Shown here: in pieces, positions 48,827 to 55,762 of the stretch
How positions within the stretch are numbered: the stretch's first letter is position 1
How the letters are laid out: each line of letters starts with the position of its first letter
Assembly (NCBI RefSeq): GCF_000220985.1
Contig: NZ_AFRW01000116.1
Span: 1 to 64,000, forward strand
Direction: 5' to 3'
Source: Nesterenkonia sp. F
Lineage (GTDB): Bacteria; Actinomycetota; Actinomycetes; Actinomycetales; Micrococcaceae
Length of the DNA: 64,000 nt
The notes under the pieces: model-generated
Told to the model about the DNA's origin: nothing
Databases searched by the model: none
The model's input: the letters and a program-made list of their open reading frames with translations, nothing else
Program-made: the position numbers and the translations under genes

Positions 48827-49597
48827 TCAGCGCACCGGATGCCCGGCGGCGGCCACGGCCTCCTTGACCCGGGCGAGCATGTCGTCGGGGCCGAAGTGGA
48901 ACAGCGAGGCGGCCAGCACGGCATCGGCGCCGGCGTCGACGGCCTCCGGGAAGTCCTCGGGCCTCCCGGCGCCGCCCGAGGCGATCAGCGGCACCCGGGT
49001 GGCCGACCGGACGGTCCGGATCATCTCGACGTCGAAGCCGTCGCGGGTGCCGTCGGCGTCGATGGAGTTCAGCAGGATCTCGCCGACCCCGCGCCCGGCC
49101 GCCTCGCGGCACCACGCGACCGCGTCGAGGCCGGTGCCGCGTCGTCCGCCGTGGGTGGTGACCTCGAAGCCGGAGCCGATCGCCGGATCCTCGGTGCGCC
49201 GGGCGTCGAGCGAGAGCACCAGGACCTGGGAGCCGAAGCGGGCGGCGATCTCGTCGATGACCTCCGGCCGGTCCACCGCCGCGGTGTTGATCGAGGCCTT
49301 GTCCGCTCCGCAGCGCAGCAGCCGGGCCACGTCCTCGGCGCTGCGGACGCCCCCGCCGACGGTCAGCGGGATGAAGACCTCCTCGGCGGTGCGGGTGACC
49401 ACGTCGTAGGTCGTGCTGCGGTCCGAGGACGAGGCGGTGACGTCCAGGAAGGTCAGTTCGTCGGCGCCGGCGGCGTCATAGCGGCGGGCCAGCTCCACCG
49501 GGTCGCCGGCGTCGCGCAGCTCGGCGAAGTTCACGCCCTTCACCACCCGGCCGGCGTCCACGTCGAGGCAGGGGATGATCCTGACCGCCAATGACAT
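48827..49597 (-). CDS. hisF: Imidazole glycerol phosphate synthase, cyclase subunit
   Basis: With HisH (not in this window) it makes imidazole glycerol phosphate and AICAR. The 256-residue barrel starts [19 protein letters not shown] (catalytic Asp) and has [34 protein letters not shown] and [14 protein letters not shown], the half-barrel phosphate sites. ATG at 49597 is preceded by AGGAGG. It follows hisG by 62 bp. Confidence 0.96.
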
Positions 49598-49659
49598 GCT
49601 GTGCTCCTCCTGTGCTCGATCGGACCGGGACGGGACGGGGTGGCTGGGCGACGACGCGC

Positions 49660-50511
49660 TCAGACGCGGCAGGCGTGGATGGAGGAGACCAGGATCGCCC
49701 GGGCTCCGAGCTCGTAGAGCTCGTCCATCAGCTGGTTCGTGCGTCCGCTGGGCACCATCGAGCGCACGGCCACCCAGTCCTCGTCGGCCAGCGGGGAGAC
49801 CGTCGGCGACTCCAGCCCAGGAGTGATCGCGGCGGCCTGGTCGAGCAGCTCGCGGCGGATGTCATAGTCCATCATCACGTAGCGCCGGGCGACGAGCACG
49901 CCCTGGATCCGCCGGATGAGCCGGTCGATGCCGACGGGACGCTCGCCGTGGCGGGAGATCAGGATGGCCTCCGAGCGCATGATCGGCTCGCCGAACATCT
50001 CCATGCCGGCGGCCTTGAGCGTGTTGCCGGTCTCGACGACGTCGGCGATGGCGTCGGCGACGTCGAGGCGGACCGCAGTCTCCACGGCCCCGTCGAGGTG
50101 GACGACTTCGACGTCCTCGATGCCCTGGGTGGTGAACCAGTGGGCCAGAAGCCCGTCATAGCTGGTGGCCACCCGCCTGCCGGCCAGCTCCTCGGCGGAG
50201 CTGAAGCTGCCCTGCGGAGCCGCCAGCCGGAAGGTGGACTGGCCGAAGCCCAGGCCCAGGATCTCCTCGGCGCCGTGGTCGACGCGTGCGTCCTGGAAGA
50301 GGTCGCGGCCGGTGATCCCGATGTCGAGAGTTCCGGAGCCGACGTAGACGGCGATGTCGCGAGGACGGAGGTAGAAGAACTCGACGCCGTTCTCCTCGTC
50401 GACCATCACGAGGTCGCGCTTGTCACGGCGCTGGACGTATCCGGCTTCGGAGAGCATGGCCATGGCGGCCTCGGAGAGCGCGCCCTTGTTCGGTACGGCA
50501 ACACGCAGCAT
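49660..50511 (-). CDS. hisG: ATP phosphoribosyltransferase (long form)
   Basis: Commits ATP and PRPP to histidine synthesis. At 283 residues it is the long form with a C-terminal regulatory domain (about residue 210 onward), so no HisZ is required and histidine feedback is expected. Recognisable segments are [32 protein letters not shown], the PRPP-loop-like [13 protein letters not shown] and the end domain [19 protein letters not shown]. It is 78 bp downstream of hisE; ATG at 50511 follows a GAGGGACCATCTG stretch. The hisG-hisF-hisI-trpE run is co-directional. Confidence 0.95.
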
Positions 50512-50589
50512 GGATCAGATGGTCCCTCGGGTCAGTATGCGGATCAGGAGCGGTTCAGCGGGCGACGAGCGGCGAGACGCGCCGCCGCC

Positions 50590-50853
50590 TCAGAGATGGC
50601 GGTAGACGTCCTCGGGGCTGATGCCGCGGGCGAGCATCATCACCTGCAGGTGATAGAGGAGCTGGGACATCTCCTCGGCGGCGGCCTCGTCGGACTCGTG
50701 CTCGGCGGCCATCCAGACTTCGGCGGCCTCCTCGACGATCTTCTTGCCGATGCTATGGACGCCGGCGTCGAGGGCGGCGACGGTGCCGGATCCCTCGGGT
50801 CGGGAGGCGGCCTTCTCGGCGAGTTCGGCATACAGCTGGTCGAAGGTCTTCAC
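50590..50853 (-). CDS. hisE: Phosphoribosyl-ATP pyrophosphohydrolase
   Basis: Second step of histidine synthesis, removing pyrophosphate from PR-ATP. The 87-residue all-helical protein reads [53 protein letters not shown], the MazG-like metal-binding Glu/Asp helices. I chose GTG at 50853: TACCCT lies 6 bp before it, giving a leaderless start, while the longer frame to 50913 has no family similarity. It therefore probably begins a new unit that runs into hisG. Confidence 0.94.
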
Positions 50854-50953
50854 CGTCCCAGGGTATGCCGTCGGCGCCCGTCGCCGCGATTCGCCCGCCC
50901 GCGACGACGTCACGGAGCATCCGACGGATCATCCGACGGAGCCTCCGCGGGCC

Positions 50954-51448
50954 TCAGTCGAGCGCGTCGAGCACCGCCCGGGTCGCCACGGCGGCATGCG
51001 CGGCCTCGAAGCCCTTGTCCTCCGTCGACCCCTCCAGGCCGGCGCGGTCGAGGGCCTGCTGGTCGTCGTCGACGGTGAGCACGCCGAAGCCCATCGGGGT
51101 CGAGGTGCGCAGCGAGGCCTCGGTGAGCCCGTCGGTGGCGGCCTGGCAGACGTAGTCGAAATGCGGGGTGCCGCCGCGGACCACCACGCCGAGGGCCACC
51201 ACCGCGTCATGGGTCTCGGCGGCGCGGGCTGCGATCAGCGGCAGCTCGAAGCTGCCCGGGGCACGGAGCAGCGTGACGTCGTCGACGCCGATCTGCTCCA
51301 GGAAGCGGTGTGCGCCGCCGATCAGGCCGTCCATCACGCGGGCGTGCCAGCGGGAGGCCACCACGGCCACGCGCAGGCCGCGCCCGGCCCGGGCGCGCAG
51401 CTGCTGCAGCTCGTCGGCGTCGATCTCGGGGGTTCCGGTGCTGCTCAT
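50954..51448 (-). CDS. ribH: 6,7-dimethyl-8-ribityllumazine synthase
   Basis: Penultimate step of riboflavin synthesis, forming lumazine from the pyrimidinedione and butanone phosphate made by the RibB domain next door. The 164-residue protein has [49 protein letters not shown] (catalytic His) and [16 protein letters not shown]. It starts at ATG 51448, overlapping the stop of the fused ribE-ribBA gene by 4 bases, and is the last gene of the operon. Confidence 0.96.
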
Positions 51449-53553
51449 CGTTCTCCTTGCTCGTTCAGCGGTCGGGTCTCCTCGGCCGGCTCGCCGCGGC
51501 CGTCGACGTCGTCGAGGGCGGGCTCCTGCTCCGACGCCTCGCCCAGGCCCAGGCGGTCACCGAGGTGGTCCATCAGGTGATGCATGCGGTCGCGCTTGGT
51601 GCGCAGGTACCGGCGGTTCTCGTCGTGGACCTCGCCCTCGGAGGGGACCTGGTCGACGTCGAGTCCGGCCTCCTGCAGCGCGGCGACCTTCTCCGGATTG
51701 TTCGTCAGCAGACGCACCCGCGTCAGCCCGCAGCTGTGCAGGATGGCCGCCGCCCCGGTGTAGTCGCGCAGCTCGGCGGCCAGGCCGAGCATCTCGTTGG
51801 CCTCGACGGTGTCCGCGCCCTCCTCCTGGAGCCTATAGGCGCGCAGCTTGTTGGCCAGTCCGATGCCGCGGCCCTCGTGGCCGCGCAGGTAGAGCAGATG
51901 GCCGCCGTCGCGCTGGATGGACTCCAGCGCCGAGGCCAGCTGCGTGCCGCAGTCGCAGCGGTGCGAGCCCAGCACGTCGCCGGTGATGCATTCGGAGTGC
52001 AGGCGGATCAGCGGAGCCTCGGCCGACGCGTCCGCGGCGGGGCCTGACGCCCCGGCGGCGGGATGCTCGGCCGGCGCCTGGGAGCGGGCGGAGATGAGCA
52101 GGTGCTCATGGCCGGTGTCGTGCTCGGCCCAGACCTGGGCGGCGAAGATGCCGTGGTCGGTGGGCAGCGTGACCACCGGCCCGGGGGTCACCAGGGCGCG
52201 GGCCTGCTCGGAGGGACGGTCCCAGCTCGCCCGCGCCGCATCGCGCACGGTGGAGGGGTCCACCGTGCCGCCGCGGTAGTCGACCAGGTCCGCGATGGAG
52301 ATCAGCGCCAGCCCGTGGGCGTCGGCGAACTCGCGCAGCGCCGGCACGCGCATCATCCGCCCGTCGTCGTGGACGAGCTCGGCGATCACCCCGACCTGCG
52401 AGATCCCGGCCAGCCGACAGAGGTCGACGGCGGCCTCGGTGTGCCCGGACCGGCCGAGCACGCCCTCGGCGTGGGCGACGAGCGGGAAGACATGGCCGGG
52501 GCGGGTCAGGTCGGCGGCGCCGGCGCCGCTGTCGGCCAGCATCTGCAGCGTGCGCGCCCGGTCGGCGGCGCTGATGCCGGTGCTCACCCCCTCGGCGGCG
52601 TCGACGCTGACGGTGTAGGCGGTGCCCTTGGGATCCTCGTTCTCGGCCACCATCGGCGGCAGGTCCAGATGGGCGGCGCGCTCGGCCGTCATCGGCGCGC
52701 AGACCACCCCGGAGCTGTGCCGGACGGTGAAGGCCATCAGCTCCTCGTCGGCGAGGGCCGCCGGCAGGATCAGGTCGCCCTCGTTCTCGCGGTCGGCGTC
52801 GTCGACGACGACGACCGGCCGCCCCTGGGCGAGCTGGTTCAGCGCGACCTCCACCGGATCCAGCACCGGGGCCGGCGTCGTCGGCGCCGGGACGGCGGGC
52901 ACCGCCGCCGCGGGATCCTCCGCGGCGAGAGCGGGAGCGGCGGACTCGCCGGAGAAGCGCAGCATGCGGCGGGCGTACTTGGCCAGCACGTCGACCTCGA
53001 GGTTCACCGCATCGCCGACCTGGCGGCGACCCAGCGTGGTCTCGGCCAGTGTGGTCGGGATGAGCCCGACCTCGAACCAGGCCGGCGCCTCCCCGGCCTC
53101 GGAGACCGCGGTGACGGTCAGCGAGACGCCGTCGACGGCGATCGAGCCCTTCTCCGCGAGATAGGGCGCCAGCTCCGCGGGCACCGCGAAGCGGTGACGA
53201 CCGTCGTGGACGTCGCGGGCGAGCAGCTCGCCCAGCCCGTCCACATGGCCCTGGACCACGTGTCCGTCCAGTCGGGCGCCGGAGGGCACGCAGCGCTCCA
53301 GGTTCACCCGGTCCCCGACGGCGCGCCGGCCCAGCGTGGTGCGCCGCAGCGTCTCCTGGATGAGGTCGACGGCGAGGTGCTCGCCGTCGACCGAGGTGGC
53401 GCTGACGCAGACGCCGTCGACGGCGATCGAGCCGCCCAGCGGCAGGTCTTCGACATGGCCCGGGGCGGCGACGGTGAGCCGCTCGACCCCGCGGGCGGGA
53501 TCGGGGCGGCGCTCCACGACGGTGCCGAGTCCGGTGATGATTCCGGTGAACAT
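51445..53553 (-). CDS. Fused riboflavin synthase - DHBP synthase - GTP cyclohydrolase II
   Basis: One uninterrupted 702-residue frame holds three riboflavin enzymes. Residues 1-200 are riboflavin synthase alpha (RibE): [17 protein letters not shown] and two lumazine-binding repeats with [15 protein letters not shown] and [15 protein letters not shown]. An Ala/Pro linker (about 200-230) leads to DHBP synthase (RibB): [19 protein letters not shown] and [22 protein letters not shown]-type metal sites. From about residue 440 follows GTP cyclohydrolase II (RibA), with the zinc cysteines in [18 protein letters not shown] and [18 protein letters not shown]. The last 40 residues are acidic. RibBA fusion is common, but adding RibE is unusual. 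It follows ribD by 3 bp and overlaps ribH. Confidence 0.93.
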
Positions 53554-54648: not shown

Positions 54649-54998
54649 CGCCGCCCTCTCCGCACGCGGTCCGGCGACGACGTCGCACGGCCCGCTCCTC
54701 GCGGGGCAACAGCGCGACGGGCCGAGACATGCCCGGTCCGGTCCCCGGCGCCGACGGGTCGGGCCGCCGCAGGGCGGCTTTCCGGCGGTGCCGGGCGACG
54801 GCGCCGGACGACGAGGGACGAAGAGCCCGAGGGGCGCAGCGGGATCGGAGAGCGCGGAGAGCGCGGAGCATGCATGGGCGTCGTGTCCTCCCCGGTCCGG
54901 CGGATCTCGTGGATGCCAGGAGCTCCGGGACGACGGCGCCTGCGCGGCGGAGGGCGGCGCCGGCCCGCGGAGAGACCCGGGACGCGTCCGACCCCCAG
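54649..54998 (-). other. Long leader between FMN riboswitch and ribD
   Basis: The 350-nt stretch has no supported gene and should contain the expression platform. GC-rich hairpins are present, such as GCCCCGC/GCGGGCC near 54690-54707 and a GCCGCCCTGCGGCGGC stretch near 54763-54778. I cannot tell whether control is by termination or by hiding the ribD start. Confidence 0.5.
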
Positions 54999-55126
54999 CG
55001 TGCTTCTCCCCTCCAGACTCTGACTGTCGGCACCGGAATTCCACCGGTTCAGCCGCGGACGTCGGGGACGACCGCGGGTCGCGGGCTGTGACCGCCGGTT
55101 CGGACTTCCACCGATCCCGGAGCACG
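54999..55126 (-). promoter_or_regulatory. FMN riboswitch (RFN element)
   Basis: Read on the minus strand, the conserved RFN parts occur in order: closing stem CGTGCT ... AGCACG, GGTGGAAGTCCGAACCGGCG then GTCACAGCCCGCGACC, GAACCGGTGGAATTCCGGTG then CCGACAGTCAGAGTCTGGA, and GGGAGAAGCAC at the end. Length (about 128 nt) and order match the FMN aptamer. It precedes ribD, where FMN binding would lower expression of the riboflavin operon. A CAGACT -10-like element lies about 20 bp before it. Confidence 0.95.
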
Positions 55127-55160
55127 TGGTGTGTCGAGGTCCAGTCTGCCACAGGCATGA

Positions 55161-55209: not shown

Positions 55210-55283
55210 AGCGGATGACGAGATTCGAACTCGCGACCCTCACCATGGCAAGGTGATGCTCTAGCCAGCTGAGCTACATCCGC
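55210..55283 (-). tRNA. tRNA-Gly (anticodon GCC), copy 1
   Basis: A 74-nt minus-strand cloverleaf: acceptor GCGGATG with CATCCGC and discriminator T, anticodon stem TCACC/GGTGA around loop TTGCCAT (anticodon GCC) and T arm AGTTCGAATCT. Identical to the copy at 55689-55762. CCA is not encoded. Confidence 0.97.
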
Positions 55284-55309
55284 ACGGATGATCAGTATAG
55301 ACCATCCAG

Positions 55310-55381
55310 TGCGCGATACTGGGTTCGAACCAGTGACCTCTTCCGTGTCAAGGAAGCGCGCTACCGCTGCGCCAATCGCGC
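55310..55381 (-). tRNA. tRNA-Val (anticodon GAC)
   Basis: A 72-nt minus-strand cloverleaf: acceptor GCGCGAT with ATCGCGC and discriminator A, anticodon stem CTTCC/GGAAG around loop TTGACAC (anticodon GAC), T arm GGTTCGAACCC. Confidence 0.97.
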
Positions 55382-55425
55382 CTGTTCAGTTGTCGGCCGG
55401 CTGCGGACAGCTCGACCGTCGTGCG

Positions 55426-55496
55426 AGGTGGGGACGGGATTCGAACCCGCGTTGACGGCTTTGCAGGCCGCTGCCTCGCCACTCGGCCACCCCACC
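55426..55496 (-). tRNA. tRNA-Cys (anticodon GCA)
   Basis: A 71-nt minus-strand cloverleaf: acceptor GGTGGGG with CCCCACC and discriminator T (normal for Cys), anticodon stem GCGGC/GCCGT around loop CTGCAAA (anticodon GCA), T arm GGTTCGAATCC. Confidence 0.97.
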
Positions 55497-55688
55497 GTAC
55501 CCGATCAGCTCCTCGCTCGCATCCCGGAGGATCCTGCGAGGCCTGCTCGACGTCCAGCGGCCGGGCCGGAGCCCGCACGCCGTCTGCAGTGCCCCTCCGC
55601 CGCCGGACGGATCCGGGCGGCGAAGAGCGAACCGCAGCATGCGACGGCCTCGGAGGACCGATTCCGCCGCATGGCATGCAGCTCGTCG

Positions 55689-55762
55689 AGCGGATGACGA
55701 GATTCGAACTCGCGACCCTCACCATGGCAAGGTGATGCTCTAGCCAGCTGAGCTACATCCGC
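55689..55762 (-). tRNA. tRNA-Gly (anticodon GCC), copy 2
   Basis: All 74 bases equal copy 1. It is the promoter-proximal gene of the tRNA unit; the order of transcription is Gly, Cys, Val, Gly. The 192 bp between it and tRNA-Cys contain no further tRNA or gene that I can support. Confidence 0.97.

Follow-up and report, generated by a model that had tools for sequence, protein, structure and literature searches.

A fused ribE-ribB-ribA gene in the riboflavin locus of Nesterenkonia

The window analysed here, the whole stretch of 64,000 nucleotides from Nesterenkonia sp. F (NZ_AFRW01000116.1), carries a set of neighbouring riboflavin genes on its minus strand. Between ribD and ribH, a single gene covers riboflavin synthase (RibE), DHBP synthase (RibB) and GTP cyclohydrolase II (RibA). 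From upstream to downstream, the features are:

54997-55128, minus strand: FMN riboswitch, upstream of ribD
53557 to ~54699, minus strand: ribD, deaminase/reductase (ORF and Pfam; approximate start), just upstream of the fusion gene
51445-53553, minus strand: ribE-ribB-ribA as a single gene (ORF, Pfam domains, mass), 702 aa, 73.9 kDa
52960-53553, minus strand: RibE domain, residues 1 to ~198, riboflavin synthase with two lumazine-binding barrels; C-terminal helix at 189-204 in the model
52864-52959, minus strand: RibE-RibB linker, residues ~199-230, Ala/Pro-rich; pLDDT <50 at 204-226
52273-52863, minus strand: RibB domain stretch (Pfam, structure match)
51568-52191, minus strand: RibA domain, GTP cyclohydrolase II, residues 455-662
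51445-51537, minus strand: C-terminal tail (residues 673-702, pLDDT <50) and stop codon of the fusion gene
50954-51448, minus strand: ribH, lumazine synthase most similar to the pentamer-forming Mycobacterium enzyme; start codon (ATG) overlapping the stop of the fusion gene

Downstream of ribH are histidine genes (window 48827-50913, minus strand): PRA-PH (hisE), hisG and a His_biosynth protein read as hisF. Four tRNA genes (55210-55762, minus strand) lie just upstream of the riboswitch.

Elsewhere, RibE, RibB and RibA are mostly separate, or joined in pairs at most. The sequence-only reading of this DNA had proposed that all three share one 702-residue frame, with an Ala/Pro linker of about 30 residues near 52,850-52,960, and both proposals are borne out. 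The frame opens with an ATG and runs for 702 codons with no internal stop (ORF reading, 51,445-53,553, minus strand). Pfam places two Lum_binding domains (best stretch residues 101-188), DHBP_synthase (236-426) and GTP_cyclohydro2 (461-634) along the protein, all far over cut-off, and the linker, at about nt 52,864-52,959, has a core of 30 residues that is 60% Pro+Ala. We found no second copy of the RibE, RibB or RibA domains in the organism's own genome (93% complete); all three activities should therefore come from the fusion, if the organism makes its own riboflavin.

We checked 19 active-site positions in the three domains, and 18 hold the E. coli residue. The residues that we take to be catalytic in E. 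coli RibE (F2, S41, C48, T67, H97 and H102) are kept as F2, S42, C49, T68, H98 and H103. What is presumably the RibB active site (R37, E38, D42, C67, H153 and E174; C67 and E174 located from adjacent positions in the printed alignment) is kept as R255, E256, D260, C285, H371 and E392, and the presumed functional residues C54, C65, C67, Y105, R128 and K154 of E. coli RibA as C522, C533, C535, Y573, R596 and K622. The nineteenth position, residue 594 (E. coli RibA D126), is Glu here; among triple-fusion rows it is Glu in 28 and Asp in 2, and in all 170 rows Asp in 124 and Glu in 46. The other 18 are invariant in 30 triple-fusion rows, which include L027, L028 and L214, the last of these with an unread linker. 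The RibA part is ~17 residues longer before the HSEC motif than E. coli RibA. A low-complexity Ala/Pro/Ser stretch lies in RibA ahead of that motif (window 52033-52095, minus strand; residues ~487-507).

Family models sort the protein as follows. On the RibE part, PF00677 matches two stretches (151 bits), and the score exceeds the cut-offs of the riboflavin synthase models TIGR00187 (180.7 against 156.6) and PRK09289 (204.1 against 155) and falls short of riboflavin synthase alpha PRK13020 (159.7 against 180). The RibB part scores 269 bits with PF00926 and 230.2 with TIGR00506 (cut-off 177.45). RibA passes Pfam and the subfamily model PRK00393 (211.9 against 148) and misses the equivalog TIGR00505 (197.4 against 205.85). 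All bifunctional RibBA equivalogs listed were missed, the best being PRK09311 with 507 against 569. The protein is related to RibBA and is not filed as a RibBA equivalog. Judged from its sequence, the gene most likely makes a trifunctional riboflavin enzyme.

The same arrangement is found throughout the genus sample. Of 30 Nesterenkonia genomes, 29 have a single open frame for RibE, RibB and RibA, among them G028, whose RibA is cut by a contig end, and G006, G009 and G023, each represented solely by its rows in the genus search table. The thirtieth, G015, is 62% complete with broken frames and was counted as a miss. All 13 named Nesterenkonia/Garicola records that we fetched (L069-L081) are single-frame, with L081 ending inside RibA; many are identical in sequence to genomes of the genus sample, and many genus genomes share RibE-RibB-RibA sequences with named Nesterenkonia records, one of these as Garicola.

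The end of the linker that adjoins RibB carries the motif P-x-[TS]-P-[AGE]-P-[VLIM]-L-D in 26 of 28 Nesterenkonia proteins and in none of 151 others; a tighter form with leading P-x matched 17 of 28 and the relaxed form was chosen afterwards, so the motif is descriptive. We also compared ribosome-binding sites, writing a hyphen for domains joined in one frame and a slash for separate genes. A strong Shine-Dalgarno (SD) sequence before a start no more than 30 codons upstream of RibB occurs in 1 of 30 triple fusions (28 Nesterenkonia proteins, L027 and L028) versus 58 of 93 distinct unfused ribBA genes (E/B-A); the Fisher p of 2e-9 overstates the evidence, the sequences being related, and the contrast is partial, as the same scan found no strong SD for 35 of the 93 unfused genes either. 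For joins of RibE to RibB with RibA known (triple fusions and E-B/A), 4 of 58 have such a site, compared with 73 of 118 in the E/B-A and E/B/A classes. The scan had been tightened from 4-mers to 5-mers before the two classes were compared.

These observations bear on what the gene is and what it makes. That a sequencing error joined separate ribE and ribBA genes has one precedent in our own material: another apparent triple fusion, G560 (L214; group g14), proved to have a run of N as its linker, and was rejected, left out of the trees and the SD count, and kept in the active-site residue counts. Error fits poorly, however, with a conserved linker end and scarce ribosome-binding sites, and the same open frame recurs in nearly the whole genus and in every named record, which means that the fusion is no assembly artefact. 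An indel at the linker, creating a stop and a separate ribBA start, had been named beforehand among the findings that would speak against a fusion; independent genomes show one open frame instead. An artefact thus has next to no probability, and the fusion gene is real and conserved in Nesterenkonia.

Harder to dismiss, yet still distinctly unlikely, is a gene with two products, in which the full-length fusion is only part of the pool and separate RibBA arises by internal initiation or linker proteolysis. Some in-frame GTG, TTG or ATG is present in 25 of 28 Nesterenkonia linkers, so internal initiation is possible; an SD-like 4-mer precedes a GTG or ATG in 9 of 28, in the L011 linker a GTG follows a strong SD, and model confidence is low across the linker. 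Half-way states exist as well: an in-frame join in the Brevibacterium group (G387, L242) still has an AGGAG before the RibE ATG downstream of the junction. Against two products stand the near absence of a strong SD from triple fusions, when most unfused genes have one, and three linkers without any ATG, GTG or TTG; no SD-preceded start is common to the 28 Nesterenkonia linkers. The RibE helix closes with RRML, which includes a conserved ATG; this codon was rejected as an internal start, since it sits inside the helix and no SD-like 4-mer was flagged ahead of it. Separate initiation of RibBA is, on these sequence features, unlikely to be the main mode. One trifunctional polypeptide, RibE then RibB then RibA, is very probably the best explanation of the whole; its size in the cell, activity, assembly and benefit are what we infer.

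How far does the join extend among relatives? The systematic samples cover Actinomycetota, and the family, order, phylum and class samples overlap. In the family sample of 395 genomes, few candidates (~4) were scored per genome and counts are lower bounds. RibE and RibB share one open frame in at least 30 of 35 genomes of group g3, assigned to Rothia by identity to named records (one partial match), in at least 14 of 27 of g6 (Kocuria; three partial), and in the one genome of g9, a triple fusion. Beyond these and Nesterenkonia (302 genomes), G560 with its run of N is the only case among the matches listed. Like the Nesterenkonia gene, the Rothia and Kocuria fusions have one frame, the same order and a variable linker; unlike it, those read have RibA in a gene of its own, G107 excepted. 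G107 (within g3) and G037 are single triple fusions, and Arthrobacter sp. H16F315 is a single RibE-RibB join. L122 (Arthrobacter sp. OVS8) was rejected as such a join, its RibB being partly covered, and was dropped as short. Two g3 genomes, G142 (L238, L247) and G584, each hold two RibE-RibB fusion genes. Eighteen of the 395 family genomes gave no RibE-RibB match with ~4 candidates scored each (8 in g32, 4 in g12, 2 each in g3, g11 and g31); these are possible riboflavin auxotrophs, or misses.

In the wider samples, at a strict E-value, RibE and RibB lie in one frame without a stop in 11 of 396 genomes of the order (own genome included), two of them of the Brevibacterium group. Among the matches listed, such a frame occurs in none of the 395 other genomes of the phylum sample, and in the class sample in 1 of 255 others (G148, with a frameshift in RibB); under the strict E-value and the matches listed, split or distant matches can escape. 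The contig scan of relatives covered the best 80 of 558. Apart from our own genome and G148, in-frame neighbours in the phylum and class samples have 1-2 stops between RibE and RibB, so they are adjacent genes and were rejected as fusions.

The Brevibacterium-group pair joins a different set. By Pfam, RibD, RibE and RibB share one open frame in G387 (L242:1459-4095, minus strand) and G148 (L245:229-2967, plus strand), measuring 879 and 913 codons between stops; the RibB half of L245 is frameshifted, and no RibA was found in the stretch read of either. The sequence gives the impression of a more recent fusion whose internal start codon may remain in use. The sequence-only reading knew of no wide spread of an N-terminal RibE added to RibBA. 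In our samples the triple form occurs in 29 of 30 Nesterenkonia genomes and as two singles. The case is not isolated: the joining of RibE to RibB recurs in Rothia, Kocuria, one Arthrobacter genome and the Brevibacterium pair.

We turned to trees of the joined domains for the origin of the join. The E-B state needs 7 changes on the 169-row tree, 7 on the 97-row tree and 6 on the 55-row tree; the B-A state needs 6 on each of the first two. Nesterenkonia forms one clade (100/100, 55-row tree), placed with support 94/95 among genera that are nearly all E/B-A or E/B/A, and the Rothia and Kocuria joins sit on other branches. AU tests reject a single clade of all E-B rows (p 1.6e-53), a Rothia plus Kocuria E-B/A clade (p 9.4e-5) and a Kocuria E-B/A clade alone (p 0.007); the groups tested follow joining states, and the first tree had been inspected before testing; both these tests and the 55-row tree use a subset of 55 of the 169 rows under LG+G4, a model without mixture. 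Nine rows were dropped as short before tree building (L122, L002, L081, L169, L179, L186, L191, L193 and L197); L222, L230 and L235, with no RibA match in the locus, are absent from the trees, and the long branch L028 (G037) is in the 169- and 97-row trees and was omitted from the 55-row one.

The tree rejects one fused clade. Gains and splits are not separable with certainty, and one old join followed by many later splits stays formally admissible. A simpler route would be that, in an FMN-riboswitch operon ribD-E-BA-H, the ribE stop codon and the ribosome-binding site of the ribBA directly behind it were lost, giving the fusion.

The AlphaFold2 model of the fusion (41 aligned rows) has a mean pLDDT of 81.5 and a pTM of 0.48. 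Its domains are mostly confident, and pLDDT falls below 50 at the first residues, at 90-102 and 504-506, in the linker (204-226) and in the tail (673-702); the C-terminal helix of RibE spans 189-204 in this monomer model. The best solved match of the RibBA part is M. tuberculosis RibA2 (PDB 4i14), which has the same RibB-RibA order and aligns over both domains, whereas the fusion has RibE in front. For RibE the best matches are trimeric riboflavin synthases (PDB 4e0f, 1i8d), with which the fusion shares two lumazine-binding barrels, catalytic residues and, in the model, the C-terminal helix. In contrast to these, its RibE C-terminus is not free: the linker and ~470 residues run on beyond it, leaving no free C-terminal cage-localization peptide. 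Linker lengths of 24 to 67 residues, with the low pTM, support no fixed inter-domain geometry. According to excerpts of PMC10366380, riboflavin synthase is a trimer held together by its C-terminal helices, with active sites formed between the subunits. The fusion must accordingly keep forming trimers through RibE. Its RibBA part would be expected as a dimer. Speculatively, the fusion probably assembles either into a closed hexamer of D3-like symmetry, in which three dimers connect two trimers, or into a more open network.

RibH, which encloses RibE in some bacteria, is indeed encoded next door, as the sequence-only reading had stressed; the capsid puzzle that this raised mostly dissolves. In heavy riboflavin synthase (Bacillus, Aquifex), a RibE trimer sits inside an icosahedral RibH capsid. 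That complex, like the fusion, brings RibE near another pathway enzyme; here, in contrast, RibH is of the pentamer type and the partners of RibE are RibB and RibA. The best solved match of the neighbouring RibH is the M. tuberculosis lumazine synthase 1w19, identical in sequence to 2c94. RAG and KG are 7 residues apart in our RibH and in this match, against 5 in the Aquifex capsid former. Across loci a spacing of 7 is the rule, with 5 in 13 rows, all E/B-A, and 10 rows off-pattern. M. tuberculosis lumazine synthase is a pentamer (excerpts of PMC10366380 and PMC2935281), and in capsid formers the encapsulation of RibE uses a free C-terminal peptide (excerpt of PMC13376624). The locus has neither the short icosahedral-type RibH loop nor a free end of RibE, whose C-terminus runs on into RibB, so encapsulation of RibE would not be expected. 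A capsid-volume estimate was set aside, as its outcome shifts with the assumed cavity diameter; at 8 nm, the cavity would match three chains in volume.

What, then, might the fusion be for? It had been described as uniting the first enzyme of the GTP branch, that of the ribulose-5-phosphate branch and the final enzyme. The triple fusion is right, but more than first and last steps is brought together. RibB makes DHBP, RibE releases the ribitylamino-pyrimidine while making riboflavin, and RibH condenses both; RibE and RibB together thus supply the two RibH substrates. The domains would work as independent enzymes on flexible linkers, and a possible benefit is that a single particle produces both substrates next to a pentameric RibH; just as well, joining the enzymes may do no more than fix a 1:1:1 ratio. 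A bolder proposal is that the trimer-dimer fusion builds a defined closed assembly (for instance a ~440-kDa D3 hexamer, or some bigger cage) which serves as riboflavin metabolon in place of the RibE-in-RibH capsid, with RibB and RibE feeding RibH from one particle, and that it evolved repeatedly where RibH stays pentameric; we regard this as a long shot.

Nothing may have been gained at all, if an occasional stop loss in a tight, GC-rich operon gave a protein that was tolerated. This concerns why the gene exists rather than what it is, and its chance is slightly short of even. The loci read are ordered ribD-E-B-A-H and the joins follow that order, joined and split states occur among close relatives, and the linker varies in length and composition. 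Yet the fusion has been kept in almost all genomes of the genus and the linker end adjoining RibB is conserved, which suggests some constraint. A neutral fusion and the supply of RibH are about equally plausible as reasons.

By titles and abstract openings, we found no RibE-RibB-RibA fusion in the open-access literature. The B-vitamin gene fusion survey of Henry et al. 2016 (PMC4921024) tabulates riboflavin-pathway fusions, triple fusions included. Excerpts of its text do not name RibE-RibB-RibA; a prior listing in the supplement is possible. The fusion is built from well-known enzymes. Trimer-dimer fusions are used by protein designers to build cages. Here is a natural trimer-dimer fusion, in an essential pathway that is absent from people. 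In one family, three consecutive genes occur in four joining states (E/B/A, E/B-A, E-B/A and E-B-A), and the same operon in all four thus offers a natural test of whether fusion is helpful or merely tolerated.
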